Source of the DNA: Dillenia suffruticosa
Lineage: Eukaryota > Streptophyta > Magnoliopsida > Dilleniales > Dilleniaceae
DNA: 64,000 nucleotides
Direction: 5' to 3'
NCBI GenBank assembly: GCA_033439265.1
Contig: JAVTVX010000012.1
Coordinates: 30,574,761-30,638,760, forward strand
The first letter of the stretch is position 1. Each line of letters starts with the position of its first letter. The translations under genes and the position numbers were made by a program. The notes beneath the pieces are model-generated. The model saw only the letters and a program-made list of their open reading frames with translations. It did not search any database and was not told the DNA's origin. Below, piece by piece: positions 3,120-45,316 of this stretch.

Positions 3120-5730
3120 TGCCACCTCATCATCCAGCTGGTCTTCTACTCCTTTCATAACATTGCCCCTGCTGAAAATTTAGCCATGTCCTCAAGGCTG
3201 TAACCGGGAAACTATCCTCTAAAATTTGAAAGGTCAAGACTGGTTGCATTCTCCTTTGTACCACCCTCCCGCAGACAAGCAACTGCTTAGTTGTTTGGCC
3301 CCCTTTTGAGATCACCTTCCTCTCTAATATTTCAATAGGTTTACACAGCCTGCTATCAGTCTCAAGGGTATGGGGCATTGCTGGTTCTGGTGTGTGATTC
3401 CCAATCATTTTCTTTAGCTGTGACATATGGAAGATGGGGTGTATCAGATCACCTTCGGGTAGATGTATTTTATAAGCCACCTCTCCTATATTTTTTAAAA
3501 TAGGGAATGGTCCATAGTATTTAGTAGCCAATTTTGCTTTGCTCTTGTCTTGGACTGAAGTTTGTTTGTAAGGGCGAAGCTTAAGGAAAACCAAATCTCC
3601 CACATTATACTATAGGTGCTGCCTATGAGTATCGGTAAATTTTACCATTTGTTGTTGCGCCTTTCTAAGATCATACTATAGTTGTTTCAAAATTTCATCC
3701 TTATTCGAGAGCTCCCTGAATACCGCTTCCACTCTTGTTTCTCCCAGAAGAAATCTGTGTACCATGGGAGGAGGTCATCCATACACCCCTTGGAAAGGGG
3801 TCATCCCTATGAAGGCATGAAAATTTGTATTATAGCTAAATTCTGTCCATGGTAACCAACCATATTACCCCTTCGGCTGCTCTGAAGTAACACAGCGAAA
3901 GTGTCTCAAGTCCCTGATTCAGAATTTCTGTCTATCCATCCATTTCGAGATGATAGACACTACTCATTTTCAGTTTCGTGCCTTGCAATCGAAACAACTT
4001 AGTCCAAAAACTACTTAGGAAAATTGGGTCGTGGTCACTTACTATGGATTTTGGAACTCTATGTAATTTGACCACCTCCTTAACAAACACCTCCGCAACT
4101 AATTTTGCTGTGTAGGGATGTTTCAGGCTAATAAAATGTCTATATTTCAACAATTTATCAACAACCACAAAAATACAATCCTTCCGTTGAGACCAAGGAA
4201 GTCCATTGATTATTGATATATCCTCCCAAACCACCACAAGAATAGGTAAAGGCTGCAAAAGTCCCGTTGGAGATCTAACCTTATATTTTTGTCGCTGACA
4301 CACAAGATAAGTTGCCACAAATGTTAGGATTGACTTCATCATTCCTTTCCAATACAAATTAGCAGCCAATCTCTTATAGGTTTTCAAAGCGCTAGTGTGT
4401 CCCGCCCCAAGAGTTTCATGAAATTGAGCTAACAAAATAGGCATTCACTTTGAATTTTCCGGAATCACCACCCTATTGTTATACAACAACGTCTCATTTA
4501 CCAAAGTATATGGGGGTCTACAATTTGGATCACTTTTCAGCTCTTGTTTTAAAGCGGACAGCTTTGGATCTCTAGCAATTTCCTCTATTTCTTTCCGATC
4601 CTTCCATAGCTGCCATGACACCACTGCACACTCAGATTCCTCCTACAACCTTGATAGACAATCTTCTACTCTATTTGTGCGTCTGGGTTTGTATTGCATC
4701 TAAAAATCATACCCCACGCTTGGAAATCCGATCCTGCTGTGCTGGAGTTGTAATTTTTTGCTCCAACAAAAATTTCAAGCTTTTCTGGTTAATCTTTACC
4801 ACCACAAAGTGTCTCCCTATTAGGTATAGACGCCAGTGTTGAATTGCCAGGACAAACGCCATCAACTCTTTTTCATAGGCTGATTTGGACAGAGATTTAT
4901 CTGAGAGAGCTTTACTAAAGAAAGGAAAGGGCCTCCCATTTTATAGGAGAACAACCCCTACACCTTGTCCCAAAGCATCACACTCAATTATAAATGGTTG
5001 AGTGAAGTTCGGCATGGCCAACACTGGGGCAAGAATCATCGCTACTGGTGAGGCTTCAAAGGCTCTGTTGGCTTCCACCAACCAAACAAACTTGTGTTGT
5101 CCATCTCTTTTTAACAATTCTGTGAGGGGTCTTGCCATCTTCCCATAATCATGCATGAACCGCCTATAGTAGCCGGTTAATCCCAAAACCCACGTACATC
5201 CCTTGAGGAGCGAGGAATTTACCAATTTAAAATACAAGTTATTTTTATCGAATTCATCTTCACCCTTTCCGTAGAGATTACATGGCCTAAATATTCGATT
5301 TTTGCCTCCCAAATTGTCATTTCTTCCTTTGGCCAGCAAATAGTTCGTTGCCAAAGTTCGTAAGGCTATTTCCAAATGAACCAAATGATCATCCCAAGTG
5401 TGACTATATTCAAAAATGTCGTCAAAGAATACCAGGATAAATTTCTGAAAATAGGGTCGAAATACGTCGTTCATTGTGGTTTGAAAACTGGTAGGAGCGC
5501 TCATGAGTCCAAATGGTATCACAATGAATTCATAGTATCCAAAATATGTTTGGAAGGCTATCTTAGGAATGTCCGATTCCTTATGGCAAATCAAGTTTGG
5601 AAAAGTATTGAGCGCCGTACAACTCATCGAGTAGCTCATATAATACCGGATTTGGGTATTTATCCAGAATGATGGATTTGTTCAGTTCCCTGTAGTCAAC
5701 ACAAAAACACTAGCTTTTGAGCGATATTTC
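3120..5730 (-). mobile_element. Ty3/gypsy retrotransposon fossil (chromovirus-type pol), broken
   Basis: Pol-derived domains lie in order on the minus strand: reverse transcriptase at about 5730-5000 (YYEFIVIPFGLMSAPTSFQ, FFDDIF), an RNase H region at about 5000-4580, integrase at about 4450-3930 (zinc-binding type N-terminus and the DHDPIFLSSFW core), and an integrase C-terminus ending in a chromodomain-like tail at about 3603-3130 (YYGPFPILKNIGEVAYKI, IHPIFHMSQLKK). These motifs are typical of plant Ty3/gypsy chromoviruses. No gag or clear LTR pair was found. The copy is old and carries several breaks. It lies between two exons of the DUF1365 gene if the weak downstream exon is real. Confidence 0.9.
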
Positions 5731-8689: not shown

Positions 8690-9287
8690 TGTACGGAAGT
8701 TATTTGTTTTTTTTTTAAAAAAAATTTAAAATAACAAAATTGAGAAAATAATTTCAAATATACCGTTCATATGCCGAGTTTTGAAAACTCGACATGTACT
8801 GTTCATACCGATTTCATGTCAAGTATTCAAAACTCAACATGCACTGTACATGTCGAGTTTTGAAAACTCAATATGGTATTATTAAATGAACAGTGTCACC
8901 GTACAAGACTCGAATGTGGGTGTTCGATTTCGAATTATTTTCGCGAGTGTATTGTTTTTATTTTTTTTATGTTAGTTCGGAACAAAACTCTAGAATTTAA
9001 AGTTTACTTCACAGAAACTTCTGAGCTACATAAACCTATCCCCCAACCTTCTCTTCACATCATGAAACTATCTCTTCTCTCCCAAATTATCAAAGCCCTC
9101 TCTACCTTGAGGCCTCTGCGTCCGACTCCATATAGATTTCTCAATGACGTTTGGTGCATTCCGGTGGTGACATCTCCTTTGCCGCGGTCACGAAGCAGAA
9201 GGTATGATTTCTTGCTCCCATATATAAGTTAATTTTTCTTTTTTTTTGGGATTCTTGCTTCTTCGCCGGCGGTGACGTCTCTTTTGT
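8690..9287. other. Palindromic-motif cluster and exon-like segment flanking MULE 1
   Basis: At 8765-8880 the motif TCGAGTTTTGAAAACTCGA (self-complementary) and variants occur three times. They match motifs inside the terminal inverted repeats of the neighbouring MULE. At 9061-9200 a plus-strand frame begins MKLSLLSQIIKALSTLRP, runs 47 codons and meets a GTATGA donor-like site. It looks like the first exon of a nuclear gene and may be a gene fragment carried by a MULE. I cannot identify it. Confidence 0.4.
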
Positions 9288-9435
9288 AGCTCTATACAGA
9301 TGTATCCCTGAGAAAAAAAGAATTTAAAACATCTCCCACGAAAAAAAATTTTCGAAATTGACATAACATGTTGAGTTTTGAAAACTCGACATGTACTGTT
9401 CATGCATATCGAGTGTTGAAAACTGGACATGCTTA
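9288..9435 (+). repeat. Left terminal inverted repeat of MULE 1
   Basis: This pairs with 13921-14110 in inverted orientation. Shared landmarks from the outer edge inward are GATGTATCCCTGAG, TTTAAAACATCTCC, and GTTTTGAAAACTCGACATG followed by CTGTTCATGCAT. Confidence 0.75.
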
Positions 9436-9573
9436 TTAACTGCCAGCATATCGAGTCTTCACTACTTTACCCACACCACACACCTACATTTTCTATGCCA
9501 ACCCTAAATACAAACTGATATACTGGAGGAAGGTGGGGATGACATCAAGTTCTCATGGCCCTCATGGGCTGGG

Positions 9574-11263
9574 TCACACACGTGCTACAATGGCAATTAC
9601 AATGGGAAGCAAGGCTGTAAGGCGGAGCGAATTCTGAGGGAAGTCATCAAATACAAGCGTGTAGAAATCTAAAAACTCACCGAACATAGTAGAAGGTCTT
9701 GTGACATCCTCGGGCTGTTGAGACGGTGGTAGTGACGCATGATCGGGTGAGGGTGGTGGTCTCATAATCGTCCTCGTCCTTGTCGTCGCCCACGTGGTCA
9801 GTCTGCATCACCACCATTATCGCCACCTCCAGCAGGTCTACGTTTGAAAAGATAAGTCATGTCATCTGCCAAAATCGAGATGGCTGAATCAACAACTCCT
9901 CGAGCATCGACACACAAAGTGTCTCGTAACTCATGCAACGTATCCCATTGCAATAAAAGATGTTAAAGTTAGTTTAAAAAGCAACTCAAAATTATTGATC
10001 GATAAAGAAAATGAAGAAAACCATGTAATATAGGCAGAATCGATGGCAGGTCTGAATGAAATGTCTAATAAATCTAGATAATCGTGTTGGTGCCTCCAAA
10101 GATCAATATAGACTATATGCTTCACCGTCCAATCGACCTCTAGTGTACCTCGACTACTCGTATCGTGGAGTCTATCCTCTATGTCACAATGAATCGGAAT
10201 GTGTTGATATGCTTCAAATTGTCGTAACACTCTATTTGGAAAGTACTACTCCACGATACTAAAATAGATTAATAGGACTCGCGCGTATCAAATGTCCCTT
10301 CCCTTATGATAGTAGCCGGGGAGGGATACCAGTAAATCCTTCATGTGCGGTACCCATACGACATGTTTGTCTAGTCCCTCTCTATACACTAAGACTACGT
10401 GTGTAAGAAAAGAAGTGACGTCAAAATCTGCCCTCCACCGCAAAGCAAACGAGCCATCCCAATCTCCGTGCAACGACCGTCAAATAGAAATCATATAAGG
10501 GAACTGCTCCCACCCCCAAATTTTTAACAAAACTAATGCCCTTCCTATCTCACGTGAGTTTACGTGTGTGACAACACAAAACTGTCTATACAAATATACC
10601 AGACATACAGAACCCCAACTATAACTACCCGAAACCTCTAAATCCTCTAACAATACTAAAAATTATAAATGTACATAATATACTGTTTTATTACAAAACA
10701 ACACACCTCCTAACAGAAGTAAAATATAAACTCATGTCTATTGTGCAATATATATATCATCAACTCTATCAGTCAAATAAGAAAAAAAAAAACTCGACCA
10801 ACCACGACATACTCAAAGTATAACCTCTAAACGTAATCTATGGAGGTCTAACACCTAATAGTCTCTCACATACATCACCACATGATACTCCCGTAGTCCT
10901 AGTGACTACAGGATGTCTATCCACATGTAATCCTAGGAGTACCTCTATGTCCTGAAGTGTAATAGACAACTCACTATGGGGGAGGTGAAAAGTGTGCGTC
11001 TCCGACCTCCATCGATCTACTAGGGCCGTAATCAGGTGTCAATCTAACTGAATAAATAACAGTAGGGTAACACCAAAAAATCTTGATTGCTCGAGAAAAG
11101 GGAGAACTCGCACGTCGATCTGACCGTGCTCCTAACGGCATCGCACGGCCTCACGTCACCAACAAGTGAGGGCAACGGTTGTGTCGTCTCCTTGCTAAAC
11201 TGTAGAAGAGCGGTGGCATCACTGTAACCGTAGAAGACTCGGATCAGAAAGTTTAGGATCCAT
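9574..11263 (-). pseudogene. Plant mobile domain (PMD, MAIN-like) gene of MULE 1, broken
   Basis: The frame starts MDPKLSDPSLLRLQ at 11263, which is the typical opening of the aminotransferase-like plant mobile domain (PF10536) proteins carried by MULEs. Further blocks are ETHTFHLPHSELSITLQD and LLGLHVDRHPV (about 11010-10910), VVWVPHMKDLLVSLPGYY..GRDIW (10378-10285), and LRQFEAYQHIPIHCDIEDRL..DTSSRGTLEVDW (10227-10130). A proline- and serine-rich tail lies at about 9765-9574. Several in-frame stops and shifts separate the blocks, so the gene cannot make a full protein. PMD proteins (host examples MAIN and MAIL1) act in transposon silencing and genome stability in the nucleus. The role of transposon-borne copies is not settled. 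Confidence 0.8.
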
Positions 11264-11639
11264 CTGCAAAAAATTTATAAGAAAAATTAATTAATACTTC
11301 AAATATTATACATAACATATAATATGCGGTAAGAAAAATATACGGCACTAATAAATACATATGGAAAGTCAATGACACATTAATATCTGCAAATGTACAT
11401 TAACCATTAAAAGAAAAACAAAGGACTCGAAAGATTGACAAATTCACAATATACGGCATAATAACAAATATATCGAGAATTGTAATTAAAAGACAAATAC
11501 AATCAATTTTCACATGATAGGGTGGGACAATGTCGTCAATTATGTCCTTGTGCGCCATAGAGACCACATCCAATTTGTTTTGTGCATCTTCTCCGATTAT
11601 GACCCTCTGCACTATAACAGCCACATGATAACGGTGAAA

Positions 11640-12883
11640 ATGACTCTCGAAGATCTATTTGCACTACAACTTCCATAAAACTTGTGATTTTGAATTCCTT
11701 TGAACTATTGCATCCAAAACTCGAGAGAGCTCTTTGTATGATTCCTCACAATTCTCGTATACTATCTCTATGGTCATTCTTTTCACAGTCCAAACACATT
11801 TTCGGGAAACTGCATATGTTGTTTTTTCGTCATAACGGTTCGTAGGAAAAAAAATTTCACATTTGGGTCTTCCCTTGCGTAGTTAAGAAAATTTTGGGTC
11901 ATCAAATTTGAATCCAATTACCTATGATCATGCGTTAACCCAGCATTGACACATGTGTATGGTCCCTTTACAACAATTATCACAAAGGCACTAAGGAGTC
12001 TTGTTTTACGTGCATGCAATCTTCACCTACAACCATCATCCCTTTGAATACATATCGCTATCTATAGTATAAAGGATGATCTCTCAACACGAAATTAATA
12101 GTGATACTCTACATGATGCATTTTCACAAAGTATAAGTTATTCCTTTGACTCAAATCTCATTTCTTTCTTCAATTTATCGCTAAAATTCGCACTATCGTT
12201 TCTCAATCTACAATCTTCCTCGAATGTCACATAACTATCTCCTCCCGGTGCAGTTCTCATGAAAGGAATTGAGTTATCAACTCCGCTATTGACATATCTC
12301 CGACCACCACCAATGGGTGGAGACGCTGTAGAGGATGCCGATATTATTTGGTTCACAGAACTACCACCACTACCACGATGAACTTCTCCAACATCTTCAT
12401 CTTCATCATCATCATCATCCTCTTCTTCCGCCATTTCTTTCTTGTCCACATCATTATCTACATCTGCGCTAGCAAAATCCACTTGACATTCGACATGTGG
12501 ATATTCATCCGTATAATCGTAATCTTGTTGCATCGATATACTAGCATTGTATGTCTTCACATATAATTCATACGTCGTATCCACACCCATACTCACCGCA
12601 TACTCTATCAATTTCAAAACGTCGTCGTCATCACTAATTGGTGTCAATTCATACTGTACATTCCCCCTTGCATGTGTGACACAGGACAACGATAATAAAT
12701 ATTTACATATTATCTCATTAAATTTATCTGAAAACTCTTACACATCACGGAAACCAACTCATTAAAAGATACATTTCTCCTGACCCGAATCAATGTCGAA
12801 GATCCACAGTCATAACCGACTCCATTCTCAGCCGTCACAACTTCACAATTTGTGTAACATAACAATTTTACTATTTCCGTCAT
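11640..12883 (-). pseudogene. MuDR-type MULE transposase, N-terminal half only
   Basis: A start at 12883 opens a frame beginning MTEIVKLLCYTNCEVV. After an apparent intron the frame continues at 12689 through CVTHARGNVQYELTPI, SDDDDVLKLIEYA and TTYELYVKTY, which is the usual beginning of plant MuDR transposases. A long acidic run (EEEDDDDDEDED) follows. Farther on, at about 12000-11690, pieces reading GPYTCVNAGLTHDHR, LDSNLM.QNFLNYAREDPN and ESYKEL match the MuDR zinc-binding region that precedes the catalytic core. The DDE core and SWIM finger are absent. Stops and shifts are present after 12138. Transposase of this class cuts and pastes MULE DNA in the nucleus; this copy cannot. Confidence 0.75.
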
Positions 12884-12889
12884 TTCTAC

Positions 12890-13920
12890 TCAATATAAAA
12901 AAATGATTTATTACTATTATATGCCAATTTTTATTTAACAGAACAATAAGTTCAAATCAATTTTCAATTTAAAAAAAAATATTAAAATTAAATCTAAATT
13001 AGAGCTTAAAACCTAAACCCTAATTCGGTTCTAATATTAAATTTCAAAGAAATCAACAAACAATTAACTAAATTAGTTAAATAATATTAATTGAACTACT
13101 AATATTAACTTTTCTAAAATTACAAATAATTGAGTTTTTTAAAAAACGATAAACCTTAATTCGGTCCTAAATTTAGAAAACCCTATTTTCTAAATGCATA
13201 TTAATTTTCAACATACCTAAACTCTATACTAAATTCAATTCATTTATCAATCTAACGATAAATAATAAATCTAAATATATTAAATAATAAATTTACTAAA
13301 TTTTTAAATTTAAACCCTAAATTTCAATTTTAAACAAATTAACAAACAATCTACCAAATTAGTTAAATAATTTGCATTAAACTACTAATATTACATTTTT
13401 TTAAAATTACTAATAATTACAATTTTTATGAAACCCTAAATTCTAATTCGGTTCTAAGTTTAAAAAATCCTAATCACTAAACAAATCAACATGACAAAAT
13501 TAATCACTCTAAGTAAATAATATTAATTAAAATACAAATAATCAATTTATTATTTATTAAATATTTTATAAAACCCTAACCCTAATTTTTCTTATTCAAT
13601 CTTTGTAAAATATTGTTCAATGAACTAACAACATCCTAATTTAATAATGTATATAAAAATTTAATCAATATAAACATATCAAATTTTAGGGTTTGTAAAA
13701 GATAAACAAGCTTTTACCTTCGCAAGAATTGACTATACAGATCTTCCAAATGCTTGTATCACGTTCAATTAAGTACCCCAAGGTTGCAGATCTCCTTAGA
13801 TGCTATAGATTGTCTGCTTAGTAAGAGTAGAAGCAGTCGTCCGCAGCGGAGGAGGAGAGAAGAAGACAAAGGGAAGAAGAAGAAAGAAGAAAGAAGAAAG
13901 AAAGAAGAGGGGCAAGGGGA
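12890..13920. other. AT-rich 5' region of MULE 1 with AAACCCTAA-like motifs and a GA-rich tract
   Basis: No coding similarity is seen. The sequence repeats phrases such as AAACCCTAA and CCTAATTCGGTTCTAA near 13010, 13150, 13310, 13435 and 13570. These resemble plant telo-box motifs found in promoters and leaders. A purine tract of GAAGAA units lies at 13850-13912, next to the inverted repeat. Confidence 0.6.
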
Positions 13921-14110
13921 TAAGCACGAACATGTCGAGTCTTCAAGACTCGACATGCACACTGTTCATGCATGTTCAATCTACTCAACATGCATGAACA
14001 GTGTGCATATCGAGTTTTGAAAACTCGACATATTGTTTCAATTCCTGAAATTCTTTTTCGCAGGAGATGTTTTAAATTTTTTTTTCTCAGGGATACATCC
14101 GTATAAAGCT
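13921..14110 (-). repeat. Right terminal inverted repeat of MULE 1
   Basis: The reverse complement matches 9288-9435. It also contains a nested palindrome: 20-base arms GCACACTGTTCATGCATGTT at 13957-13976 and their exact complement at 13987-14006 around a 10-base loop. Copies of the TCGAG..CTCGA palindrome flank it on each side. Confidence 0.75.
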
Positions 14111-14485
14111 CCTCATATATAAATTATGTTCGGCAAAAAAAAAAAAAAATTTTGCAAACGATAATTTTTATTTTTTGCAAATATTTTTCTGCCCTAAAAT
14201 TTTTGGTTCTGGCTTTTATTTTTGTACAGCTTTTTGTTCTCCATTTTTTATGTTCAGCATTCTTTGGTTCTGGAAGTTTTCTGCAAATGACCCAAATTGG
14301 CTTGTGCTTTGTCCATGTGCCAATTTTTGCAAAATGGTTGTATCCATGTGCTCTGTCGATGTCGTGGCCAAAATTTATTTGAAGGAAAAGAGTGAAGAAA
14401 AATATTAAAAAAGGCTTGATCATAAAATAAAAGACAGGTTGTGATTCCGGACCTGGCTTCTTAGGTTGGCTGGTAGACTGTTCTT
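14111..14485. other. Spacer between the two MULEs
   Basis: About 375 bases with an A homopolymer and overlapping short open frames on both strands that match no family. No gene is seen. The spacer is rich in TTTTTGCAAA and TTGGTTCTGG type phrases. Confidence 0.5.
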
Positions 14486-14565
14486 GGGTTATTTCCTAAA
14501 ATATTGTACGGGGTCTAAAAAATGTGGGTTTATTTTTTTCTCCCAAAACTATCAAAGAAATCAAT
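14486..14565 (+). repeat. Left terminal inverted repeat of MULE 2
   Basis: This pairs with 19838-19916. The outermost 20 or so bases differ at one position, and similarity then continues with small gaps. Confidence 0.7.
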
Positions 14566-15800
14566 TTCAAAAGTATCCGGTCAGTCTATCTTCCAAGAAA
14601 AAAAATAGAAGTCGATTTTGCTAAAATCAATTTTAAGCCCATGATTAACATCAACGACACTTTCCGGTATGGCAAGTACAGAGAGAAAATTCTGATTGCC
14701 GTGGGCTCTGATAGTGCAAATCATATTATGGCATTGGCTTTTATTGTAATCGACGAAGAGATTTTGGTAAACTGGTCATGGTTCTTAAATAACTTGAGAG
14801 TTCACGTTATTGACGATTGTCAAGGTGTTTACATCATTTTTGATATGCACCTAGAATTCTCCTATCTATCCAGAGGGATCCCAATTTACAATCACCGTTT
14901 GTTTACCATCAAATTTGTTTGCAGCACTTAAAAGCAAACTTTAGCAAATGGTTCCGAAATATGCCGTTAATGGAATTAATACATAGGGCCACTGTAGCTC
15001 ACAAAATTTAGAAATTTGATGTGATGATGTACAAGATCAAAGAATTGAGTGAGTCCGCATATCGATGGTTAATGGATATTCCACTTGACAAGTGGATCAT
15101 GTGTTACAATGGTGGAAGATGATGAAACAACCTGACGACAAATAGATCGGAGAGTTTTAATAGGGTGCTGAAAGGGGCAAAAAGTTGTCGATCATTGCAT
15201 GTATTCGGATGACATTATATCGTATGGTTATTTATTTCAATAAATATCGAAATAAAGTGAAAAATTATCTAAAGGATGACAAGAGATGGCCAACAATTGT
15301 AATGGATAGAATACTTTGAAACGAACAGAAGTCCAAATACCATCAGTGACTGCTTTTAATAGGGCAGTAGGGGAGCATGAGGTAATGGGGTAGAGATGGA
15401 AACAAGCACAAAGTAATTTTGAATGAATATTCCTGTACCTGTGACAAATTCGAGATATTTAAACTTACTCCCATATGTGGAAGGTCTATGAAATTATAGG
15501 CATTAGATCATGGTTGACAACTTCCACAGTTTGTAGTAGATAGTCCTTACGGATGTTAGCGGATTTTGTCCCTTGGGATATTAGGATTACTAGCCCCTAT
15601 CTCTCATTTAGTGGCCAATATTTCGTGTCTAGCTATCAGTTTGGATGATCACAAAACACCAGGATTACGAATGAGATGAATGGACGAAGGACTCAACGTT
15701 GCAAGGCAGGGCCATAACCAAAACAATTTCTCAAATATGGAATGATTGAGAGAGACAACCTATTTAAACCAATAAGCAGCTTCATTTTCATGTAAAGAAA
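14524..15800 (+). pseudogene. MULE transposase, catalytic core and SWIM region, broken
   Basis: The first 136 codons (14524-14931) read FRYGKYREKILIAVGSD, then IMALAFIVIDEE, then WSWFLNNLRVHV, the core pattern of plant MULE transposases (GKYKGKLL..A.., LAFA.VDEE, WSWFL..L). Where the family usually has the first catalytic Asp, just before GT/NDT..GKY, this copy appears to have Asn. Later fragments read KFDVMMYKIKELSESAYRWL, IPLDKWIMCYNGGRR, TNRSESFNRVLKGA (about 15010-15180) and EYSCTCDKFEIFK (about 15420-15465), the last being SWIM-like. Many stops and shifts interrupt the frame after 14931. The N-terminal MuDR domain is missing. The start given is simply the first ATG of the open block. Confidence 0.75.
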
Positions 15801-16077
15801 GATTTGAAACGTAATAAATTATTAATGTTTAATAGATCATATTAATGATTGAATGTTCAATATATAATTTTAGTTATTACACTATTAATTTTAATATAAA
15901 ATTTTACATCGAACAAAGTCAAATTCATGCTATTTTAGTCTAGGTACGGTAATCAGAATTTGTGTGGGGTTAAGCAAAAATACACAACATTTCTATCATA
16001 GTGTTTCAATCTTTCAATTTTTGTACCCTTATGTTTCAAGTTATGCTTCAACCATGAAGTAATTGAAGCATTGTACT

Positions 16078-16312
16078 CAATGGAGACAAAATTATAGCCA
16101 CACTTATTGCTGCTTTATGAGCTCTTGGTCCAACTTCCTTGGCTTTGAGACTTCTTCCTTAAAGATGCTCATCTAGTCCTATCTTGAATGACGAAGGACT
16201 ACATGAGCATCTTCAACGAATAAGGTACAAGGCGTAGGATGATGGATTGAGAGCACAAAAAAGCAGTAACAAGTCCGATAATAATCTATTTCCATTGAGT
16301 CTGACGCTATGA
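16078..16312. repeat. Foldback hairpin 1 in MULE 2
   Basis: The two arms of about 100 bases are imperfect inverted copies around a short loop. The outer ends CAATGGA..AATTAT pair with ATAAT..TCCATTG, and the inner ends AAGATGCTCATCTAGTCCT pair with AGGACTACATGAGCATCTT. The transcript would fold into a long stem. No TSD or coding content is seen. It is related to hairpin 2, sharing CACACTTATTGCTGCTTT-like and CTTCTTCCTT phrases. Confidence 0.7.
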
Positions 16313-16535
16313 TTATTTCATAATTGAAGCAGGATTTCAAACAGGAGAATGGATAGCGAAATGTAATGAATGTAAAACATGTTTAATAGATATTGATATG
16401 TAATGGACCTTATGAATGTTCTTGATGATGTAATGATAGATGTGATGTTTTATGACTTTTGTCATTCTATGAATGATTTTATGTTTTCTGCATTCTGTCA
16501 TATATTTTCTTAAAATATTGTCGGGCTTATTATGT

Positions 16536-16722
16536 TTTTATATTTGGTTAAAAATATTATCACACTTATTGTCTCCTTTTTATGGTCACATGCAACCTTG
16601 GCCTTGTGCCTTCTTCCTTGGAGAGAGCATCTCCAAGGAAAAAGGCGCAAGGACAACGAAACTTGCGTGTAACCGTAAAAAGGAGGCAATAAGTGTGGCA
16701 ATATCCCTTCCAAATATAGAGA
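16536..16722. repeat. Foldback hairpin 2 in MULE 2
   Basis: The arms are about 90 bases each and pair over almost their whole length. TATTTGG at the left end pairs with CCAAATA at the right, CACACTTATTGTCTCCTTTTT pairs (with one mismatch) with the complement of AAAAAGGAGGCAATAAGTGTG, and the inner CCTTGGAGA pairs with TCTCCAAGG. The loop is only a few bases. Because of this symmetry, open frames on the two strands give similar peptides, which shows that neither is a gene. Confidence 0.8.
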
Positions 16723-16969
16723 CATTGTAAAATGTTGGACGCTTCATTTTATGGTTTCTCATTATGCACAAGACTTTATTTGGATGCAAACTTTAATTGT
16801 TAAACATATATTCATTGATAAGATTAAACTAATTTTGTGAATTATAAAATCATTGCGAAGATTGAGTTTTTTTTTTTTTATTATGCACTAAACTTTGATA
16901 AGACTGAACGATTTTATTGGTTTTGTAGATTTTGATGATGACAACAACACATGATTATCCATACTTATA

Positions 16970-19020
16970 GTCAGGTTCACGAGATCTCAGTGTATTATAC
17001 CCCTAGTTAACACATCGTTCTCAGCGTATCTAGGAGACTGGGACCGATGCACCTCTAGATAAACGTCATGCTGATCACGGGTTTTGGTTTGTATGCACAT
17101 TGGACATGCGTGTACAACATCTTCTATTCTAGCAAATTTCTATGGGGTGTACTGGTGTGGTCATATCTAGTTTGACCATGCTCTTATTACAGCCTTGGTC
17201 AAGCGATGGACATAAGAGTCACATACATTCCATCTGCCCATTGGTGAGGCGATCGTTACGTTGTAGAATGTCGAGGTCCTATGGGGGCTTACCCATTGAT
17301 AGAGAGTCAACTACTGGCATCGATGTTTAGCGGAGCCTTGTTGAGTGGCAGAAGCTGTGTCTTGAACTTATGGGCTTCATCCTTAATCCTAACGACTTCA
17401 ATGGTGACCGGCTTAAGGTGAGGACCATTACGACTGCATTTGATTTGCAACCCCTACACCCTGACTCCGAATGGCCAATGATTTTATTTCATGCGCGAGG
17501 GCGCATCATGTAGTTGTTGGGCAATCTACTTAGATACAAGTCAGGGTCGAAGGTCAAGTAGATATATTTGGAGTTGTTTCGAGATATAGACACATTCGAT
17601 CACTTCAGTTGGGACACTACAGTTTTGGCTGCACTATACAGAGATTTGTGCCAGGGGGTATACTCTTGGAGTCAAGTAGATTATGGGACTACCGTTACTT
17701 TTACATGTATCATATTTTTTGGCAAACTTTCTTTTGATGATTTTATGTGAATTTGATCTTTAACTTCATTTTTTTTTATCTGTCACCAACTTTGAGCATG
17801 GAAGAGATTACTCATATTCAGACGAATCAGACGCCATACTGCTTATCCCACTTCCACTACACTAGATTTGCTGAGTGGTCCATAAGAATCACTGTAAGTT
17901 ATATTGAGATATAGTGAGAGATAGTATTTATTATCACTTGTATATATTTACTTTCGAATGTTTTGAAACAGATGAAATGTTCGACATAGTTTTGCTGACA
18001 TCAGACAATATGTCCTTAGGTGTTATAGAGATCGATGGATCACATAAGGGAGGATGAGGTAGGTTAACTTACTATGTGCATGAGATCATATGACTATCGA
18101 GTTTTCTATTGAGTTCACTAATATATGTCCAATTTACATTTTGTTTTTTCATTTTCAGTTCATCTGGATGTCATATTCGAATTTTGATTTAGATGCGTTG
18201 TCACCTTACTATCATCAAGGTAGTAACATTTGGCGTGCATATGTTTCGCTGACTGCTTTGAGGTTGTGGAGTACCATCTTTCTGAGAGAATTCTCAGACA
18301 GTTTGGCATTCAGCAGGGTGTATTGGTTGATGTAGATACTTGATTGGATTTGCATTGTATCGATCGACATGAGAGAGTGGGATGGAATTGGAGGAACATT
18401 CATGCATCCCATATAGAGAGGTGGGAGGATAGTTGAGATTACGTTATCCATGGACACTTGTTCTACGATTATGTGACGATGTCTCTGGAGTATATGCCTT
18501 GATATTGCGTCATCATGCATACATATGTGGGCAATCTAGCACATAGTTATATAGTCGGTTTTTGCCCTACGATATCATGTCTTTTATTTTTTTCATTGAT
18601 TAGCCGATCAATATTGTATTTATTGTATGGTCAAATCACTTGAACACATACACTAGATTGTTGGTGATGTATTGGTCTTAGATGCATTTGAAGCTATAGC
18701 TATCAAGATTAGAGAATCGCATGCACTATGAGTTTTTGGTGGTGATCGATACTCAGCCTCTGCACCAACGGACAATTGGGATCATTCGTCGACATCTGGC
18801 CTGATAGATAAGGATGATGTGATATTAACTCTACATAGATGATACTAGGGCATTCTATGCCTGCTTTCGACATTGGTATTAATGATGTTTCACCTACTAT
18901 TCCTCCTAGCATGGATGGCTACCACTGGTACCGTAGTAGATTATCTCATACCATAGAGCTAGAGACAGTCGTTCCAAACTTTGATGAGACTGCAAAATCC
19001 TTGCGTCTTCCTTGTGATAA
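16970..19020 (+). pseudogene. PMD (MAIN-like) gene of MULE 2, broken
   Basis: Blocks occur in the normal PMD order. There is an N-terminal SVLYP/HRSQRIW-like piece (about 16990-17040), then GGLPIDRESTTG (about 17280-17320), LCLELMGFILNPNDFNGDRL (about 17357-17415) and ELFRDIDTFDHFSW..LAALYRDLCQGV (17571-17660). Farther on come FIWMSYSNFDLDALSPYYHQG.NIWRAYV (18160-18245) and a C-terminal NWRNIHASHIERWED (about 18385-18430). The final reading block ends at 19024. Stops and shifts separate the blocks. This PMD is distinct in sequence from the one in MULE 1 (for example SPYYHQGSNIW against PGYYHKGRDIW). The position downstream of the transposase in the same orientation is the same. Confidence 0.75.
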
Positions 19021-19184
19021 TTAGTGTTATTCATATCAGTTGTATATTTATATTTGTAAAACTCACTTTTATATATCTATATATATTTTTCATTTGTTCA
19101 CTAAGCATGTTTATTTCGATTTAATTAATTTGAATATTAATTTGTTCATCAAGTTCTTGAATATTCAATCATTCACCACGTTTG

Positions 19185-19835
19185 TCCTCCTTCTGGGGCA
19201 CCATACTAGTGTTTTCCTCTGGAGTGACAGAACTGTGGAGCAAATGGAGTCTTTGAGATAAAGTAATTCGCGCAATTGATAGATCTCAAGGAATTGCTCA
19301 ATGAAATAGAAATTCACTTGTGTTCTGGCTGTTTGCTCCTAGAGCATGAAAACATTAAGATAAGGTAATCAGAGTATTGAAAAGATCTCAAAAAATTGTA
19401 TGTGTAAACTAAAATTCACTTTGAGATAAAAATATTTGCTCGAAGAATACAGAGTCGCTTTGAGATAAAATGTCAAGTGGTGCTAGTCCATTTGTAGAAT
19501 GAGATTGTTCAAAAGAGTCAAGAAAACAGAGTCTCTAAGATAATGTAACTCGAGCAATTAATAGATGTCAACGAATAGCTCAAGGGAAAGAAAATTGGTT
19601 CTCTCCAGACACTTTGCTCCCAGTACATGACGTGTCTTTGTGGGCCACGACACTAGCGACGCAACCATTGAGCAAATGGAGACTTTGAGATAAAAGAATT
19701 CAAATAATTCGAGCATTCAAAATATTTCAGAAAATTGCACAAGTAAACCAAAATTTACTTCAAGAAAAGAAGTTTTGCTCGGACAACCTGAAACCGCTTT
19801 GAGATGGAAGTGTCCAAGTGGGGATATTGTAAGTC
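19185..19835 (+). repeat. Imperfect direct repeats in the 3' part of MULE 2
   Basis: The phrase GAGCAAATGGAG followed by CTTTGAGATAAA occurs near 19238 and 19670. Each is preceded by a GGGC/CACNA..ACTAG phrase and followed by AATTC..CAATTGATAGAT or AATTCGAGCATTC. Several extra copies of TTTGAGATAAA and TCTAAGATAA lie between. This looks like a duplicated subterminal block of roughly 430 bases. Confidence 0.6.
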
Positions 19836-19837
19836 AA

Positions 19838-19916
19838 TTTCGAGGGGCAGTTTTGGAAAACAAAATTCCACTTCTCAGATTTTGTGCCACATTCCCAATA
19901 TTTTGGGAAATAACCC
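19838..19916 (-). repeat. Right terminal inverted repeat of MULE 2
   Basis: The reverse complement begins GGGTTATTTCCCAAAATATTG and matches the left end at 14486. Confidence 0.7.
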
Positions 19917-25456: not shown

Positions 25457-27408
25457 AGTTAGCAAATAATATATTTATAACAAGGCAAAGTTGACTGTTT
25501 GTGCTTTTTAGAAGAGGAATCAACACCCCTTTGGTACTGTCTGCAATCAAACAAGTTCAACAGGGAATGGCAAATGAAGAGTAAAAAGGGAAGTAGACAT
25601 ACTGAAGAGGGGGAAGATTTATGCCTTCTTGAGCCCACATAAGTGGCCAGATGTAATACAATTTTTTCCATAAATTTACTTCTCCAATTTAAACAACACA
25701 ATGTGGAGGTGGGAGTATAACCGGCATAATGGACACAAGTTGTCTAATTGAGGTCTTGTAGTTTTGCAGAATGTAAACAATCTTTCCCTAAATAAAACCC
25801 TTAGGATAAAAGTGCCATGTATTTTTTTATTTCTTTCCTTTTTGTCAGGATGGATGAGAGTTCCATGTCTTATTAAAGCCATTAAGGAAGTGACTTTCTT
25901 CTAAATGACAAGGTGATCATATGTTGTTTCTATCACTTGTGCTAGTTAGACTGAGCTCTAAATGATACTATTTGGAAAAGCGACTGCTTTAGAAAGCGGC
26001 TTGAGCTAACATGAAACGGTGGTGTTTACATCCCCATCACATGTGGATTCAGGATGGCTTATGAGAGGGATGTGGAATAATAAATGGAATTGAAGGGCCT
26101 GGCAATTTTCATACTCAATACTGCTTTCTCTTTAATATGCAAAGGATAACATTGTGTATGAGTTTACTCCTTTCTTTAGTATATCTTTTCTTGACAATTA
26201 TAATACATCTGTTTTGAGAAAGTCTGGGATTATGCTTCAAGTCTACTCTTGTTGTGTAAGTGGAGGAAAACTGGTTTGCTTGTCATTACATTTACTCAAA
26301 ATTGGACCTGCATGCTCTTGCTTTGTGTGAAAATAGTTGTCGCTCCCTGTTTTGGTGTGTTTATCTTTTGCATATTAACGTCTTTAATGAGGCCCGGCCA
26401 ATTAATAGTGGATTCAATGTTCTCTTCCTCCTCAGGCATGAGGTCTTGCTTTTTGAGGCTCTAAGAGAAGGCTTGGATGAAGAAATGATGAGAGATCTCT
26501 CTGTATGCGTCATGGGTGAAGATGTGGGTCACTATGGAGGTTCATACAAGGTAACCAAAGGCCTTGCTGAGAAGTACGGTGATTTAAGGGTTCTTGATAC
26601 ACCCATTGCTGAGAATTCATTTACTGGCATGGGAATCGGAGCTGCTATGACCGGACTTAGGCCAGTAATTGAGGGTATGAATATGGGTTTTCTGCTTCTA
26701 GCTTTCAACCAGATCTCAAACAATTGTGGCATGCTTCACTACACTTCTGGTGGGCAATTTAAGATACCAGTGGTCATCCGGGGACCAGGTGGAGTTGGCC
26801 GACAACTTGGGGCAGAACACTCTCAACGTCTTGAGTCCTACTTTCAGTCAATTCCTGGAATTCAAATGGTGGCGTGCTCGACGCCATATAATGCTAAGGG
26901 CTTGATGAAAGCTGCAATCAGAAGTGAGAACCCGGTGATTCTTTTCGAGCATGTTCTGCTCTACAATCTCAAGGAGAGAATACCAGATGAAGAGTATGTC
27001 TTGTCACTTGAGGAAGCCGAGATGGTTAGGCCTGGGGAGCATGTTACCATCCTAACTTATTCCAGGATGAGATACCATGTGATGCAGGCTGCAAAGACCT
27101 TGGTGAACAAGGGTTATGATCCTGAGGTGATTGATATCAGGTCACTCAAACCTTTTGATCTTTATACAATTGGAAATTCAGTGAAGAAGACTCATCGTGT
27201 TTTGATTGTGGAAGAATGCATGAGAACAGGTGGAATCGGGGCTAGCTTGACGGCTGCCATCACTGAGAATTTCCATGATTACTTGGATGCCCCAATTGTA
27301 TGCTTGTCATCACAAGATGTGCCTACCCCATATGCTGGGACATTGGAGGAATGGACTGTGGTTCAGCCTGCACAGATTGTGACTGCTGTTGAGCAGCTCT
27401 GCAAGTAG
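21640..27408 (+). CDS. Pyruvate dehydrogenase E1 component subunit beta, chloroplastic
   Basis: The exons are 21640-21727, 21805-21902, 22012-22055 and 26436-27408, all with GT/AG introns and phases that join cleanly, giving 400 residues (close to Arabidopsis E1-beta at about 406). The N-terminus ([17 protein letters not shown], rich in A/S/R) looks like a plastid transit peptide. The enzyme core runs from about residue 78 ([12 protein letters not shown]) through [13 protein letters not shown], the thiamine-diphosphate contact Glu136 in [20 protein letters not shown] with its conserved His, and the C-terminal TTP-binding half ([30 protein letters not shown]) to EQLCK. With E1-alpha it decarboxylates pyruvate and passes the acetyl group to E2, feeding plastid fatty-acid synthesis. 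The ATG chosen is the first in the spliced frame and opens the transit peptide. An earlier in-frame ATG at 26260 lies in intron 3. Introns 1 and 2 are short; intron 3 is 4380 bases. Confidence 0.95.
22168..22327. repeat. 80-bp tandem duplication in PDH intron 3
   Basis: Two nearly identical 80-base units (22168-22247 and 22248-22327), each beginning GTTTATATGGTTGCATTAGC, differ at only a few bases. The duplication is recent. Confidence 0.9.
23500..25110 (-). mobile_element. L1-like LINE relic in PDH intron 3
   Basis: Translated on the minus strand, scattered frames match the reverse transcriptase of plant L1 LINEs in correct order. [13 protein letters not shown] lies at about 25030-24990 (family: LDIEKAYDHVNW), [17 protein letters not shown] at about 24870-24820 (family: GLRQGDPLSPYLF), and [11 protein letters not shown] at about 24720-24690 (family: LFADDT..F). 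A C-terminal-like frame [15 protein letters not shown] follows at 24328-24134. Stops and frameshifts are frequent, so the copy is old and 5'-truncated. Its orientation is antisense to the host gene. The lower boundary (about 23500) is uncertain. Confidence 0.8.
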
Positions 27409-38795: not shown

Positions 38796-39399
38796 CACTA
38801 CAAAAAAACACGGTTTTAGCGACGGATTTAGTAACGAAAATTTTAGAAAAATTCGTCGCTAAAAACATTAACGACGGATTTAGCGACGAACAACTTTTCA
38901 TAGCTAATGACGCGTCGCAAATATTTAGGGACGAAAAACAGAAATCCGTCGCTAAAATAGCGACAAATTTAGCGAAGAAAAATTTTCATCGCTAAATTTA
39001 ACGACGGATACAAAAAATCCGTTGCTAATTTTAGCTACGGAAATTCAAAATCCGTCGCTAAATTTAGCGACGGATCCGAGAAATCCGTCGCTAAATTATA
39101 TGATATATAATTATTTTTTTATTTATTTTATATATTTTATTTAATTATTATATTAATATTTTATTTTATTTAATTAGCGACGGATCCATGAATCCGTCGC
39201 TAAATTATATTATATACAATTATATTTTTTATTTATTTTATACATTTTATTTAATTATTATATTAATATTTTATTTTTATTTAATTAGCGACGAATGCTT
39301 GATCCGTCGCTAAGCCCCTGGATCCCGCGCACGAGCGTCATTGCTCCAACTCACGAGGCTACCTGGCCCACCTTGGGCCCCACCCGCGTACGAGCCCAA

Positions 39400-39890
39400 C
39401 CGCCCGCCCGCATCACCAGCCTCTGCCCCTACCTTGCACACGCCTGCTCGCCCCTGTCCTGCCCCAGCTCGCCCCTGCCTGCTCGCCCCAGCCCAGCTCC
39501 AGCTCCCTGCTCGCCCCTGCACCCTGCCTGCTCGCCCCTGCACCCTGCCCAGCTCCAGCTCCCTGCCTGCCCCAGCCCAGCTCCAGCTCCCTGCCTGCTC
39601 GCCCCGGCACCCTGCTCCAGCTCCCTGCCCACTCGCCCCTGCACCCTGCTCCAGCTCCCTGCCTGCTCGCCCTCCCTGCCCCAGCTCGCCCCTGCCTGCT
39701 CGCCCCAGCCCAGCTCGCTCACCTTTGCACCCTGCCTGCTCGCCCCTGCACCCTGCCCTACCCCAGCCTGCTCGCCCCAGCCCAGCTCGCTCACCTTTGC
39801 ACCCTGCCTGCTCGCCCCTGCACCCTGCCCTGCCCCAGCTCGCCCCAGCCCCTTGCACACGCCTCGCCCCAGCCTGCTGGCCCCTGCTGC
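39400..39890. repeat. GC-rich minisatellite inside CACTA-1
   Basis: Units related to CTGCTCGCCCCTGCACCCTGC and CCAGCTCCAGCTCCCTGC repeat many times. Stops are rare on both strands, so long proline/alanine-rich (plus) and glycine/arginine-rich (minus) frames appear. These are by-products of composition rather than genes. Confidence 0.9.
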
Positions 39891-39907
39891 CATGCAAAAA
39901 ATCCTTG

Positions 39908-39998
39908 AAAAAACCCTCAAAATGCCTACAGCCCGATTCGAACACCTGCACAAGAGTAAAATGTTAGTAAACCCAACCACCAGACCACATCTTACCTT
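39908..39998 (-). other. tRNA-like sequence inside CACTA-1
   Basis: Read on the minus strand it has GATGTGGTCTGGTGGTTGGG (A-box-like) and, about 35 bases later, GTGTTCGAATCGGGC, close to the B-box consensus GGTTCGAATCC. The acceptor stem does not pair convincingly, so it is probably a tRNA-derived relic rather than a tRNA gene. Confidence 0.45.
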
Positions 39999-40002
39999 TA
40001 AT

Positions 40003-40960
40003 CATACTTCTATTTTCTTTTTACTTATTATCTAATTCTAAATATTAATTAAAAAAATAAAAGTTTATATCAAATAATAAAATGCTAATTAAAATAAACT
40101 AATAAATTAATTAAAAAATAAAAAATATTATTCTTTAAAAAGATTTAAAAAATAAAATAAGAAAATATTTAAAAAAATAAAAAAAATATTATTATGTAAA
40201 AAATAAAAAGAAAAAAGAAAAAAAAATGTTAATTTAAAATATTAAAAAATAAAAAATATGATTATTTAATATAAATTAATAACATAACAAAATAAAATAA
40301 AATATTAAAAGTTAAATTTAAAAAATTAAGTTTAGCGACGAATTTTAAAATCTCTCGATTATTTAATATACTTCTATTTTATTTTTACTTATTATCTAAT
40401 TATAAATATTAATTAAAGAAATAAAAGTTTATATCAAATAATAAAATGCTAATTAAAATAAACTAATAAATTAATTAAAAAATAAAAAATATTATTCTTT
40501 AAAAAGATTTAAAAAATAAAATAAGAAAATATTTTAAAAAAATATTATTCTGTAAAAAATAAAAATAAAAAAGAAAAAAATAAAATGCTAGTTTAAAATA
40601 TTAAAAAATAATAAATACGATTATTTAATATAAATTAATAAAATAACAAAAAAAATAAATTATTAAATGTTAATTTTAAAAAAATTAAGTTTAGCGACGG
40701 ATCGTTGAATCCGTCGCTAAATCAGCGACGGATTCCTTTATTCGTCGCTAAACTTAGCGATGGATTTCAATTTGTCGCCAAATCCGTCACTAAATAATAA
40801 AATATTAAAAAATTTTATTATTTAAAAATTAAAAATATTAAAAAATAAAATGATAATTTAAAATATTTTAAAATAATAAATATGATTATTTAATATAAAT
40901 TAATAAAATAACAAAAAAAATAAATTATTAAATGTTAATTTTAAAAAAATTAAATTTCGC
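40003..40960. repeat. AT-rich direct repeats inside CACTA-1
   Basis: A block of about 360 bases starting ATACTTCTATTTT(A/C)TTTTTACTTATTATC at about 40003 is repeated nearly unchanged at about 40366. A partial third copy begins near 40800. Each ends in a GCGACGGAT/CCGTCGCTAAAT-rich patch, so the subterminal motif occurs also in the middle of the element. Confidence 0.8.
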
Positions 40961-42408
40961 GACGGATCGTTGAATCCGTTGCTAAATCAGCGACGGATCG
41001 TTGAATCCGTCGGTAAATCAGCGACGAATTCCTTTATTCGTCGCTAAACTTAGCGACAGATTTCGAATTTGTCGCTAAATCCGTCGCTAAATAATAAAAT
41101 ATTAAAAAAAATAATTTTAGTCTTTAAAAAATAAAAATATAAAATAATAAAATTAAATGCTTATTTAAGATATTTTAAAATATTAAATATGATTAGTTAA
41201 TATAAATTAATAAAATAAAAGAATAATAAAATAAAATAAATGGATTACCGTTTATCAGTAGTTATCCGTTTCACTGTTACCATCCTCCGAAAAATACTGT
41301 TCGATCTAATTGCCAGACGAGATAGAACGTTGGAAGTGAATGTATTATATATTGTGTTTTTTACTGATAACAATAACGAATGAATATGAATAACTGAGTT
41401 TTCACAAACAATTGAACTATATAAGAGAATCGAATGGATGTAGAAGACAAAAACACGAATGGTGAAATCGACAGCTGCGACTAATTGAAAATTATTTGTC
41501 ATAGATTTGTTGAATTATTTATTGTTAAAATTATCAAATTGATGAGATTTGTAATATTTCATATGTATTTAATTCGATTTTGTTATTTAGAATATATTAA
41601 AAAGGGAGATACGATTAAAAAAATTTCATAATAGAGTATAGAAGAAATTTTGTTCGGAAATTATTCATGAATTTTGAAATTCCGATAATAAATTAGTGAC
41701 GAATTTAGCCACGAATATTTTATTTGTGGCTAATTAGCAACGAATTTTACCACGAATATTTTTTTGTGGCTAATTAGTGACGAAATTAGCCATGAATTTT
41801 AGAGTTTGTTGCTAAATTTTGTGACAAATATTTTTACCGTGACTAATTAGCGATGAATTTAGCGACGGAAATTTTTGTAGCTAATTAGTGATGAAATTTG
41901 TGACGAAATATTTTCGTCGCTAAATTTAGGGACGGATAAGAGTATCCGTGGCAAAATTTAGTTACAAAAATATTATTCGTCACTAAGTAGCGACGAATTT
42001 TGCAACGAAAAATTTTTCGTCGTCAATTGGCGACGGATTTAGCGACAAAAATTTTTTCGTCTCCAATTAGCAACAAATTTAGTCACGAATAATCTATCTG
42101 TCGGAAATTTAGCCACGAATAATTTTTCGTCGCTAATTTCGTTGCAAATTAGTGACAAAAAAATATTCGTCGCTAAATCCGTCGCAAAATAGCAACAAAA
42201 TTTTTCCGTCGCTAAAATCCGTCGCCAAAACCGTGTTTTTTTGTAGTGATGGTTGACCATTGTAGTTCATATTGTTAACCATTTGGACTTCTTCGATCGG
42301 CTTTTCGTAGATTATACTTAGCACAATTTTTAAATCGTTTCTCATTAACTCCATAGTTTTTTTCCCTCTTAAATTAATTTGATCACCATTAAAACTTTAT
42401 TTGTCAAT

Positions 42409-43267
42409 AATCTTTCATTTTTTATGATGAGAAAACCTTTAATGATTTGAAAATTATTTTTCTATTCGTTCAATAGTTTTCTTCCCCTTTTTATCTTTCT
42501 ATTAATCCTTAAACTTTCTCCTCCTATTTTCGATAATTCTTCTTCTCCTTCTTCTTATCATCAATAAAAAGGGATATCGATTTAAAACTAAGAGGGCAAA
42601 AAAGACTCAAAATTAAGGTCATTAACCTATTTTTGAGGAAACAAAACTTCCCCTTACAATTTTCCTATGTGCCATATCAAGGACTTTAGATAAATATAGT
42701 TCCAGGCACACTTGAAAATTGATAGAGAATAGATTATGAGAATTTAGCATATGAAAGAGAACTCAGATTTTGGGATATGGAGATGGGTTCAACTCATTGC
42801 CCATTCATGCATGGCATAAAGGAGATGGGTTCAACTCATTGCCCATTCATGCATGGCATAAACTTATATGCATGCTCACTACATGCAAGTTTGACACTTA
42901 AATTTCCTTTATTCTTATATTTGTCTCTAGAATGGACACGAGAATTTTATGAGTGAGACACATGTCCTATATTCACTCCCTCTTTTTGTCATAAATCCAT
43001 TTCTTCTTCTTTCCTTAGTCTCTTCTAATTCGGACAACAATTAGCAATTATAACAGTTGAAATTATGATTTGTCTAATTGCTAAGGAATGTGATGAGTTT
43101 TGGTATAATTTGGGAGAGGGTTGAGTTTATAGGATCCCGATAGATTAACATTTTTACTTGAACCACTAGCTAGGGAAGCAATAAGCTCTCAATCCTATTG
43201 AGATGATCTTCTGACTTAGTCAGATTTTCAATATAATTCTTTGAGATTTCAGCTTCCATTACTTATG
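42409..43267. other. Non-coding, no gene recognised
   Basis: AT-rich sequence with a TCTTCT-rich patch near 42535 and the 42-base tandem duplication described separately. No coding similarity is seen. Confidence 0.5.
42779..42862. repeat. Perfect 42-bp tandem duplication
   Basis: Two identical 42-base units begin GGAGATGGGTTCAACTCATT (42779-42820 and 42821-42862). Their identity means the duplication is recent. Confidence 0.95.
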
Positions 43268-43514
43268 CTTCTCCTTTATTTTATTTTTTTTTGTACCATG
43301 TCTTGGATATGACTCGATATCCGGGATTTCGCCCTAACTAATCCGAATCGACCGTTGCAATGGCTTCTTTCGGAGGGTGGGTCTCCCAACGGGGAACGCT
43401 CCATACACATGAGGGCCCGATACTCCTAGCGGAAGTCAAACCTCAGTCATGTTTAAGGGTACTCAACCCCACATTCAGTTGAGCCAATCCACGTTGGTTT
43501 CTTCTCCTTTATTT
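43268..43514 (-). mobile_element. tRNA-derived SINE with perfect 14-bp target duplication
   Basis: Read on the minus strand, the 219-base body starts with a tRNA-like head (GTGGATTGGCTCAACTGAAT, then GAGGTTTGACTTCCGC as B box). It continues with a GC-rich body and the CGGATTAGTTAGGGCGAAAT and GGATATCGAGT motifs typical of a plant SINE group, then ends in an A-rich tail. CTTCTCCTTTATTT is present on both sides (43268-43281 and 43501-43514). The intact duplication indicates a fairly recent insertion. Confidence 0.9.
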
Positions 43515-45225: not shown

Positions 45226-45316
45226 GGTACTGAGTGCATCATGATTCAAGTATCCTAATTTTACTTACTACTATTCCTCCTAAGCCATTTACACTATATG
45301 ACTTTGATTGATGCAG

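Follow-up and report, generated by a model that had tools for sequence, protein, structure and literature searches.

We analysed a window of 64,000 nucleotides of Dillenia suffruticosa DNA (C12:30574761-30638760), plant nuclear DNA judging by what it contains, with searches run against its own genome (596 Mb, 37 contigs), and found that it holds two decayed Mutator-like elements (MULEs), which lie 375 bp apart (14110 to 14486), 5' to 5', and point outwards. In each relic, what is left of a transposase gene is followed by a gene for the plant mobile domain (PMD), both in the same orientation. The left relic belongs to a lineage, here called A, and the right relic to a second lineage, B; the ordered pair of transposase and PMD recurs genome-wide and the PMD was shown to be under purifying selection, so that the gene is most likely of use to the element. 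Our whole explanation, that the window holds two dead copies of long-separated lineages, that the PMD is selected and that counter-silencing is its likeliest role, has a probability of about 0.5. The features of the two relics, in window positions and with their terminal inverted repeats (TIRs), are as follows.

9288-14110, minus strand: left element, a decayed lineage A MULE (TIR pair and A-family protein matches)
9288-9466, no strand: left 3' TIR (78% over 181 columns to 13938-14110)
9526-9636, plus strand: bacterial-type small-subunit ribosomal RNA (rRNA) fragment (Rfam RF00177 at 46.5 bits and E 1.6e-12, short of the gathering score of 50; limits judged by eye on the alignment)
9619-9765, minus strand: remnant of the third frame of lineage A (A orf3 residues 60-115; tblastn E 2.6e-5)
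10006-11263, minus strand: left PMD gene, broken (A PMD residues 1-421; 52-61% identity to the A PMD)
11521-11661, minus strand: left transposase C-terminus (A residues 800-846; tblastn 62% identity)
11667-12883, minus strand: left transposase N-terminal part (A residues 1-408; tblastn 49-65% identity)
13938-14110, no strand: left 5' TIR with palindromic subterminal motifs (pairs with 9288-9466)
14486-19916, plus strand: right element, a decayed lineage B MULE (family-B protein matches and TIR homology)
14486-14506, no strand: right 5' TIR core, GGGTTATTTCC... (inverted repeat to 19896-19916; terminus as in the family-B copy L030)
14563-15556, plus strand: right transposase remnant, catalytic to SWIM (B residues 275-605; 42-56% identity to L030)
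16032-16343, no strand: foldback insertion, like a miniature inverted-repeat transposable element (MITE), set between the right transposase and the PMD (70% self-complementarity over 315 columns)
16527-16730, no strand: second foldback (MITE-like) insertion in the same interval (self-complementary, 76% over 209 columns)
17034-18463, plus strand: broken right PMD gene with gaps that resemble introns (an earlier stretch at about 17034-17657 and a later one at about 18111-18463)
19896-19916, no strand: right 3' TIR core (inverted repeat to 14486-14506)

Two relics of different lineages

The first-pass annotation, made from the letters of the window, had described two adjacent, divergent PMD-carrying MULEs at this spacing, and the coordinates and gene matches agree with it. 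In the left relic, the TIR score was reached by 0/200 shuffles. Residues 1-408 of its transposase comprise the PB1-like and MuDR/DBD regions, carry frameshifts and stops and end just before the MULE domain, and in its C-terminus two CCHC knuckles, both degenerate, were recognised by eye, with no match to the family A protein for residues 409-799 (the catalytic middle, 391 residues). Membership of this relic among MULEs comes through its matches to the A transposase, which has PF10551 (E 7.2e-16). Three separate minus-strand frames of the left PMD match PF10536 (E 5.5e-20, 4.7e-9 and 2.2e-7, the third being below the curated cut-off); the gene passes the Pfam cut-off with 72.3 bits vs 34.9, and its ATG sits directly after a GCAG acceptor-like site. 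Since the left PMD is 56-57% identical to that of lineage A vs 33-36% to B copies, the left relic is, on this comparison, an old member of lineage A. The rRNA fragment, probably mitochondrial, is located between the left PMD and the 3' TIR, and none was found in the matching end of the A copy L009; an Rfam scan of the whole window at gathering score gave 0 matches. Outside the left element, a palindromic stretch at 8717-8888 repeats the left subterminal motif CGAGTTTTGAAAACTCGACATG and resembles the left TIR at about 69-81%, which suggests a solo end or a MITE.

The right TIR has 29-nt arms, 86% complementary, and its score was reached by 23/200 shuffles in a wide search and 0/200 in a narrow one. 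Weak when taken by itself, it gains support from homology to the termini of the family-B copy L030, the 5' TIR of which starts with the same GGGTTATTT as the right 5' end. Among 18,276 sampled 40-mers of the window, 0 outscored the right 5' end and 0.13% reached the right 3' end against the L030 5' TIR, and 0.15% and 1.6% reached them, respectively, against the L030 3' TIR, vs 21% and 17% in a control comparison with the A TIR. The right transposase remnant matches Pfam PF10551 (MULE, E 2.1e-6) and has its best match in B, with no N-terminal part found by match to family B. In Pfam alone the right PMD is weak (one frame, E 0.0014, 18.3 bits, below cut-off), and its membership rests on homology to L029, a PMD gene elsewhere in the genome (PF10536, 152.8 bits), with 46.5% identity to PMD exon 1, 50-61% to the last PMD exon and 66-71% at the DNA level. 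In the PMD tree it falls within the B clade (100/99), where it joins L029 (96/96), as a long branch the exact place of which is less certain; from this grouping and the transposase match we assign the right relic to lineage B. The two foldbacks between its transposase and PMD have a 79-column piece in common (70%), and near its 3' end, at 19223-19826, are directly repeated stretches some 120 bp long (72%).

Thus the claim of two distinct MULE lineages sharing the same ordered pair is borne out, and at the level of lineage A vs B the transposase and the PMD agree on the assignment of both relics. The same annotation had spoken of complementary transposase halves, the left keeping only the N-terminal part. 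Its description of the right half as the catalytic to SWIM region stands; the left relic also keeps residues 800-846 with their zinc knuckles, so that only residues 409-799 are unmatched, and the complementarity is, as read from these matches, the result of two separate losses in two lineages. Both window elements are evidently dead, since the left has lost residues 409-799, the right has lost its N-terminal part and stops or frame breaks occur in all four genes. No convincing target-site duplication (TSD; 8-11 bp in MULEs) was found at either window element, perhaps through decay: the score of the best left candidate was equalled by 926/3000 random position pairs, and none was found at the ends of the right element.

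Lineages A and B and their relatives

Twenty further loci were taken from ranks 2-21 of the genome PMD matches, a sample therefore biased to young, open copies. Nineteen of them are one MULE family of about 8 kb, with transposase then PMD on one strand; their main BLAST pieces share 96.5-99.7% identity with L009, and these 19 represent lineage A. The other locus (L025) and the top-ranked one (L001) are PMD genes distinct from these, with no transposase match in stretches of 10 kb and 3.9 kb. The A copies have TSDs of 9-10 bp, perfect in 18/19 and with a single mismatch in the remaining one, with boundaries that could shift by up to 4 bp. The transposase that they encode is 848 aa long and their PMD protein 438 aa. 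Behind the PMD all 19 have a third frame, which is probably a 3' exon of that gene; transposase, PMD and third frame are all open in 11/19 copies, L026 being scored as broken since its transposase match splits. The A transposase has the Pfam domains MULE (PF10551, residues 440-540), MuDR-type PF03108 (238-302) and SWIM, with a sub-threshold PB1 match, and the A PMD has the full-length PMD domain; compared with PDB sequences, it gave only one chance-level match (E 0.67). The transposase stop codon lies 229 bp upstream of the PMD start codon, and the PMD of intact A copies is a separate frame. An acceptor-like AG stands immediately before the PMD ATG in A, in an open subfamily A2, in L037 and in the left relic, and splicing at this site may be inferred. 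In one further A-lineage copy (C20:21767478-21769510) the transposase N-half ends just 135 bp before the PMD match, and its catalytic region seems to have been deleted, as in the left window element.

Lineage B is represented by L030, L035 and L036, in which a B transposase is followed by a PMD on the same strand. The TIRs of L030 match at 78% over 134 columns, and it has a TSD of 10 bp with one mismatch, a score reached by 18/3000 random pairs. A B PMD search with L029 gave at least 109 places (113 rows, 4 second pieces dropped), of which 5/109 among the matches listed had no stop; only two of these five match at least 200 residues, and both are genes in which a PB1 part is joined to a PMD (L029 and L038/L034). 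Lineage B thus looks old and decayed, and older than A, as far as such counts can tell.

The PB1-PMD gene L029 (L029:5943-7883; C11:19836964-19838088) has a 378-aa open frame with a PB1-like part joined to the PMD, for which Pfam itself reports the PMD only (152.8 bits) and not PB1. It is the sole copy at high identity, the next being at 62% among the matches listed. Its matches to L030 run over 3567-4012 and resume at 6411, the pattern expected if an in-frame deletion had taken about 2.4 kb, catalytic domain included, out of a B element, and its PB1 part has its best match in B elements among the loci compared; no TIR was seen. The second gene, L038/L034 (C13:1589561-1591176; L038:4259-5000 plus L034:1-2301), has a PB1 match in Pfam at E 5.5e-4, the 20.3 bits of which fall short of the 23.6 required, and a PMD match at E 9.7e-52; its PB1 part has no close copy, the nearest being L029 at 31%. 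Beyond PB1, neither gene matched the A or B transposase in stretches of 10 kb and 7.3 kb, respectively. It is possible, though we would not lean on it, that these two are new host genes which arose from PMD-carrying MULEs when the catalytic domain was lost and PB1 and PMD were kept, and that the proteins could now oppose the elements; the two could also be element remnants that happen to be open. No PB1-PMD gene was found in print in the open-licence literature, and as single-copy genes they are apparently new.

Three further loci (L031-L033) resemble host PMD genes of the MAIN/MAIL kind, with no transposase match in the stretches examined (9.5 kb for L031), and the PMDs of A, B and both window relics are 23-38% identical to them. 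In approximately unbiased (AU) tests, on PMD trees of A, B, host-type and PB1-PMD genes and the two relics, a clade of B plus the right relic without L029 was weakly rejected (p 0.043). A clade of A, B and both PB1-PMD genes apart from the host-type genes gave p 0.17, a clade of A, B and L029 only gave p 0.12, and a clade of A plus the host-type genes gave p 0.30. One uptake of the PMD by MULEs and several uptakes both fit these tests.

A recurrent pair and selection on the PMD

For lineage A, the match lists comprised at least 117 PMD places (125 rows, 8 second pieces dropped), at least 106 places of the transposase C-half (108 rows, 2 second pieces dropped) and at least 116 of the N-half (119 rows, 3 second pieces merged or dropped), and pairs were called with the N-half within 6 kb or the C-half within 3 kb of a PMD. 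The lists were matched only with each other, a miss being either a true absence or a place beyond those listed, and all pair counts hold among the matches listed. A transposase half was upstream on the same strand at 81/117 A PMD places, other transposase/PMD arrangements numbered 0, and with the PMD places shifted by 100, 250 or 500 kb the N-half gave 0 pairs. From the transposase side, 68/106 A C-half places had a PMD, and by identity these were 30/31 at 95% or more, 23/31 at 85-94%, 11/26 at 75-84% and 4/18 below. For lineage B, at least 112 transposase places were listed (141 rows, from which 27 of A type and 2 second pieces were removed), and at 55/112 of them a B PMD lay on the same strand no more than 5 kb downstream (the median gap being 1186 bp), with 0 other arrangements and 0 pairs in shifted controls. 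In addition, MULE transposase adjoins PMD in L035, L036 and L037.

Between A and the open subfamily A2 (L039), PMD dN/dS (the ratio of nonsynonymous to synonymous divergence) was 0.187 (bootstrap 0.131-0.250, 437 codons) and transposase dN/dS 0.143 (0.113-0.174, 844 codons), with no stop in either pair, and PMD changes by codon position were 116/71/213, a third-position excess. Between A and the left relic the PMD gave 0.212 (0.14-0.28) and the transposase 0.271; the A comparisons that are informative have much silent divergence (pS 0.52-0.64), which makes these ratios rough. In lineage B, L030 vs L035 and L036, decayed copies compared nonetheless, gave 0.41 and 0.22 for the PMD first exon and 0.29-0.44 for transposase parts, and B vs the right relic gave 0.42 (0.22-0.68) for the PMD and a saturated value or 0.18 for the transposase. 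Therefore the PMD is under purifying selection and has been kept in each lineage. The first-pass annotation had supposed that the PMD does something for the element, and both the genome-wide recurrence of the pair and this selection support it; the PMD is most likely a selected accessory gene and not a passenger, in so far as substitution patterns tell.

Several results weigh against our explanation as a whole. No PMD was listed for 38/106 A transposase places and for 57/112 B transposase places. Among young A copies, with coding differences of about 0.5-0.6%, pN/pS was 0.97 (0.57-1.81) for the PMD and 0.76 (0.44-1.55) for the transposase, not different from 1, as is expected if divergence came only after insertion; A vs L037 gave a PMD ratio of 0.64 (0.38-1.16), which is uninformative. 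The likeness of PMD proteins to DUF1985, a domain that bears on their role (below), is sub-threshold and absent from the A PMD itself, and a DUF1985 search of the genome gave no match, but its controls were silent too. Finally, in several other plant MULE groups of Table 1 of Dupeyron 2019 (PMC6446971) the PMD is sometimes or often antisense, whereas here it is sense in every pair found.

As to what the PMD does, counter-silencing is our first choice by analogy with host proteins, held tentatively and at somewhat less than even odds. MAIN and MAIL1 act in transposon silencing and interact with the phosphatase PP7L, according to passages of Ikeda 2017 (PMC5418596), Nicolau 2020 (PMC7156037) and a 2021 review (PMC8616336). 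An element PMD resembling these proteins would compete with, titrate or divert the MAIN/MAIL1-PP7L complex at element copies. A DUF1985 match occurred in 3/8 PMD proteins, weakly (best E 5e-4, one being 19.6 bits vs a cut-off of 35.1), and since DUF1985 is part of the VANC proteins by which VANDAL MULEs counter silencing, as stated in part of Hosaka 2017 (PMC5735166), this likeness is a weak pointer to counter-silencing.

The PMD may instead be an accessory transposition protein, for integration, targeting or transposase assembly, with no silencing role. MURB is such an accessory protein of maize MuDR. The presence of PMD beside transposase in two lineages under similar constraint fits this account equally well, and both genes are present in young A copies that have perfect TSDs; however, host PMD proteins act, in the published excerpts, in silencing and gene expression, and several MULE groups in the table of Dupeyron 2019 list no PMD, which implies that it is not generally needed, and we consider the account rather unlikely. 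Less probable by a good margin is a PMD that serves as a self-limiting regulator or keeps host silencing engaged, so that copies spread without host harm. The PMD is under selection and its host relatives repress transposons, as reported in print; the recent burst of near-identical A copies is not, however, predicted by strong self-limitation.

A passenger host gene picked up without benefit is very improbable. MULEs can capture gene fragments, as a passage of Ikeda 2017 states, and the left element has an rRNA fragment inside it; against this stand the PMD dN/dS of 0.19 between two open subfamilies with its third-position excess, the full-length domain in A, and a start codon with its acceptor-like AG that A, A2, L037 and the left relic all retain. 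For lineage A, passenger capture was rejected by the dN/dS of A vs A2.

The first-pass annotation had itself raised two further origins, one element split by inversion and PMD frames from a non-MULE element (here a gypsy retrotransposon), and both are practically negligible. The PMDs of the left and right relics as one clade were rejected (AU p 4e-90), which counts against the inversion. PMD is known from gypsy elements (parts of Ikeda 2017 and of PMC9289625) and gypsy-like frames occur at 3133-5681 (read by eye), but MULE transposase adjoins PMD in the window, in 19 A copies and in L030, L035, L036 and L037, and MULE-type TIR termini and TSDs occur in the 19 A copies (one mismatched) and in L030. 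Membership in the PMD-carrying Ty3/gypsy elements was rejected, the PMD lying between MULE-type termini; long terminal repeats were not searched for as such.

Elsewhere in the window, open frames read by eye resemble gypsy pol (3133-5681), a plastid pyruvate dehydrogenase E1-beta exon (26260-27405) and a CACTA transposase (48380-50453). Tandem arrays of a palindrome of the GCGACGAA type are numerous at 38989-46583 and 54708-55195, and are perhaps subterminal repeats of CACTA-like elements.

Comparison with known systems

The association of MULEs with PMD and the counter-silencing idea are already published. PMD-carrying plant MULEs appear in Babu 2006 (as cited), in passages of Ikeda 2017 and in Table 1 of Dupeyron 2019 (groups 42, 45-50), where PMD is listed in several plant MULE groups. 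Ikeda 2017 describes, in the same passages, fusions of PMD-C proteins with MULE transposases from grasses and Amborella and proposes that they serve against silencing, an idea that a section of the 2021 review (PMC8616336) repeats, and in tea PMD genes are reported as sources of phased small interfering RNAs (part of PMC10673657). No selection test of a MULE-borne PMD was found in print in the open-licence literature, and the test given here is apparently new. Element-borne PMD activity has so far been speculation, and purifying selection shifts the question from whether the PMD does something to what it does; one plant now offers a recent open A family, an old decayed B family, host-type PMD genes and PB1-PMD genes as a test case.

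The lineage A copies described here are like the published PMD-MULEs in having a MULE transposase with SWIM or CCHC, TIRs and a TSD of 9-10 bp plus the PMD. They differ from those of Ikeda 2017, where the MULE PMDs described are transposase fusions, in that the PMD is a separate frame. With the host proteins MAIN, MAIL1, MAIL2 and MAIL3 (PMD-C) the elements have the PMD domain in common, whereas the element PMDs sit inside MULEs. VANDAL21 with VANC is likewise a MULE with an extra gene beside the transposase, but no DUF1985 lies above cut-off among the PMD proteins here. No VANC-type protein with DUF1985 plus DUF287 was found, DUF1985 being weak in 3/8 PMD proteins and absent from the A PMD, and giving no match in the genome search with silent controls. 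The domesticated MUSTANG genes (MUG7/MUG8) resemble L029 and L038/L034 in their PB1 domain and MULE origin, as described in part of PMC8616336, the latter being only possible for the two Dillenia genes, which add a PMD and have no transposase match beyond PB1 in the stretches compared.

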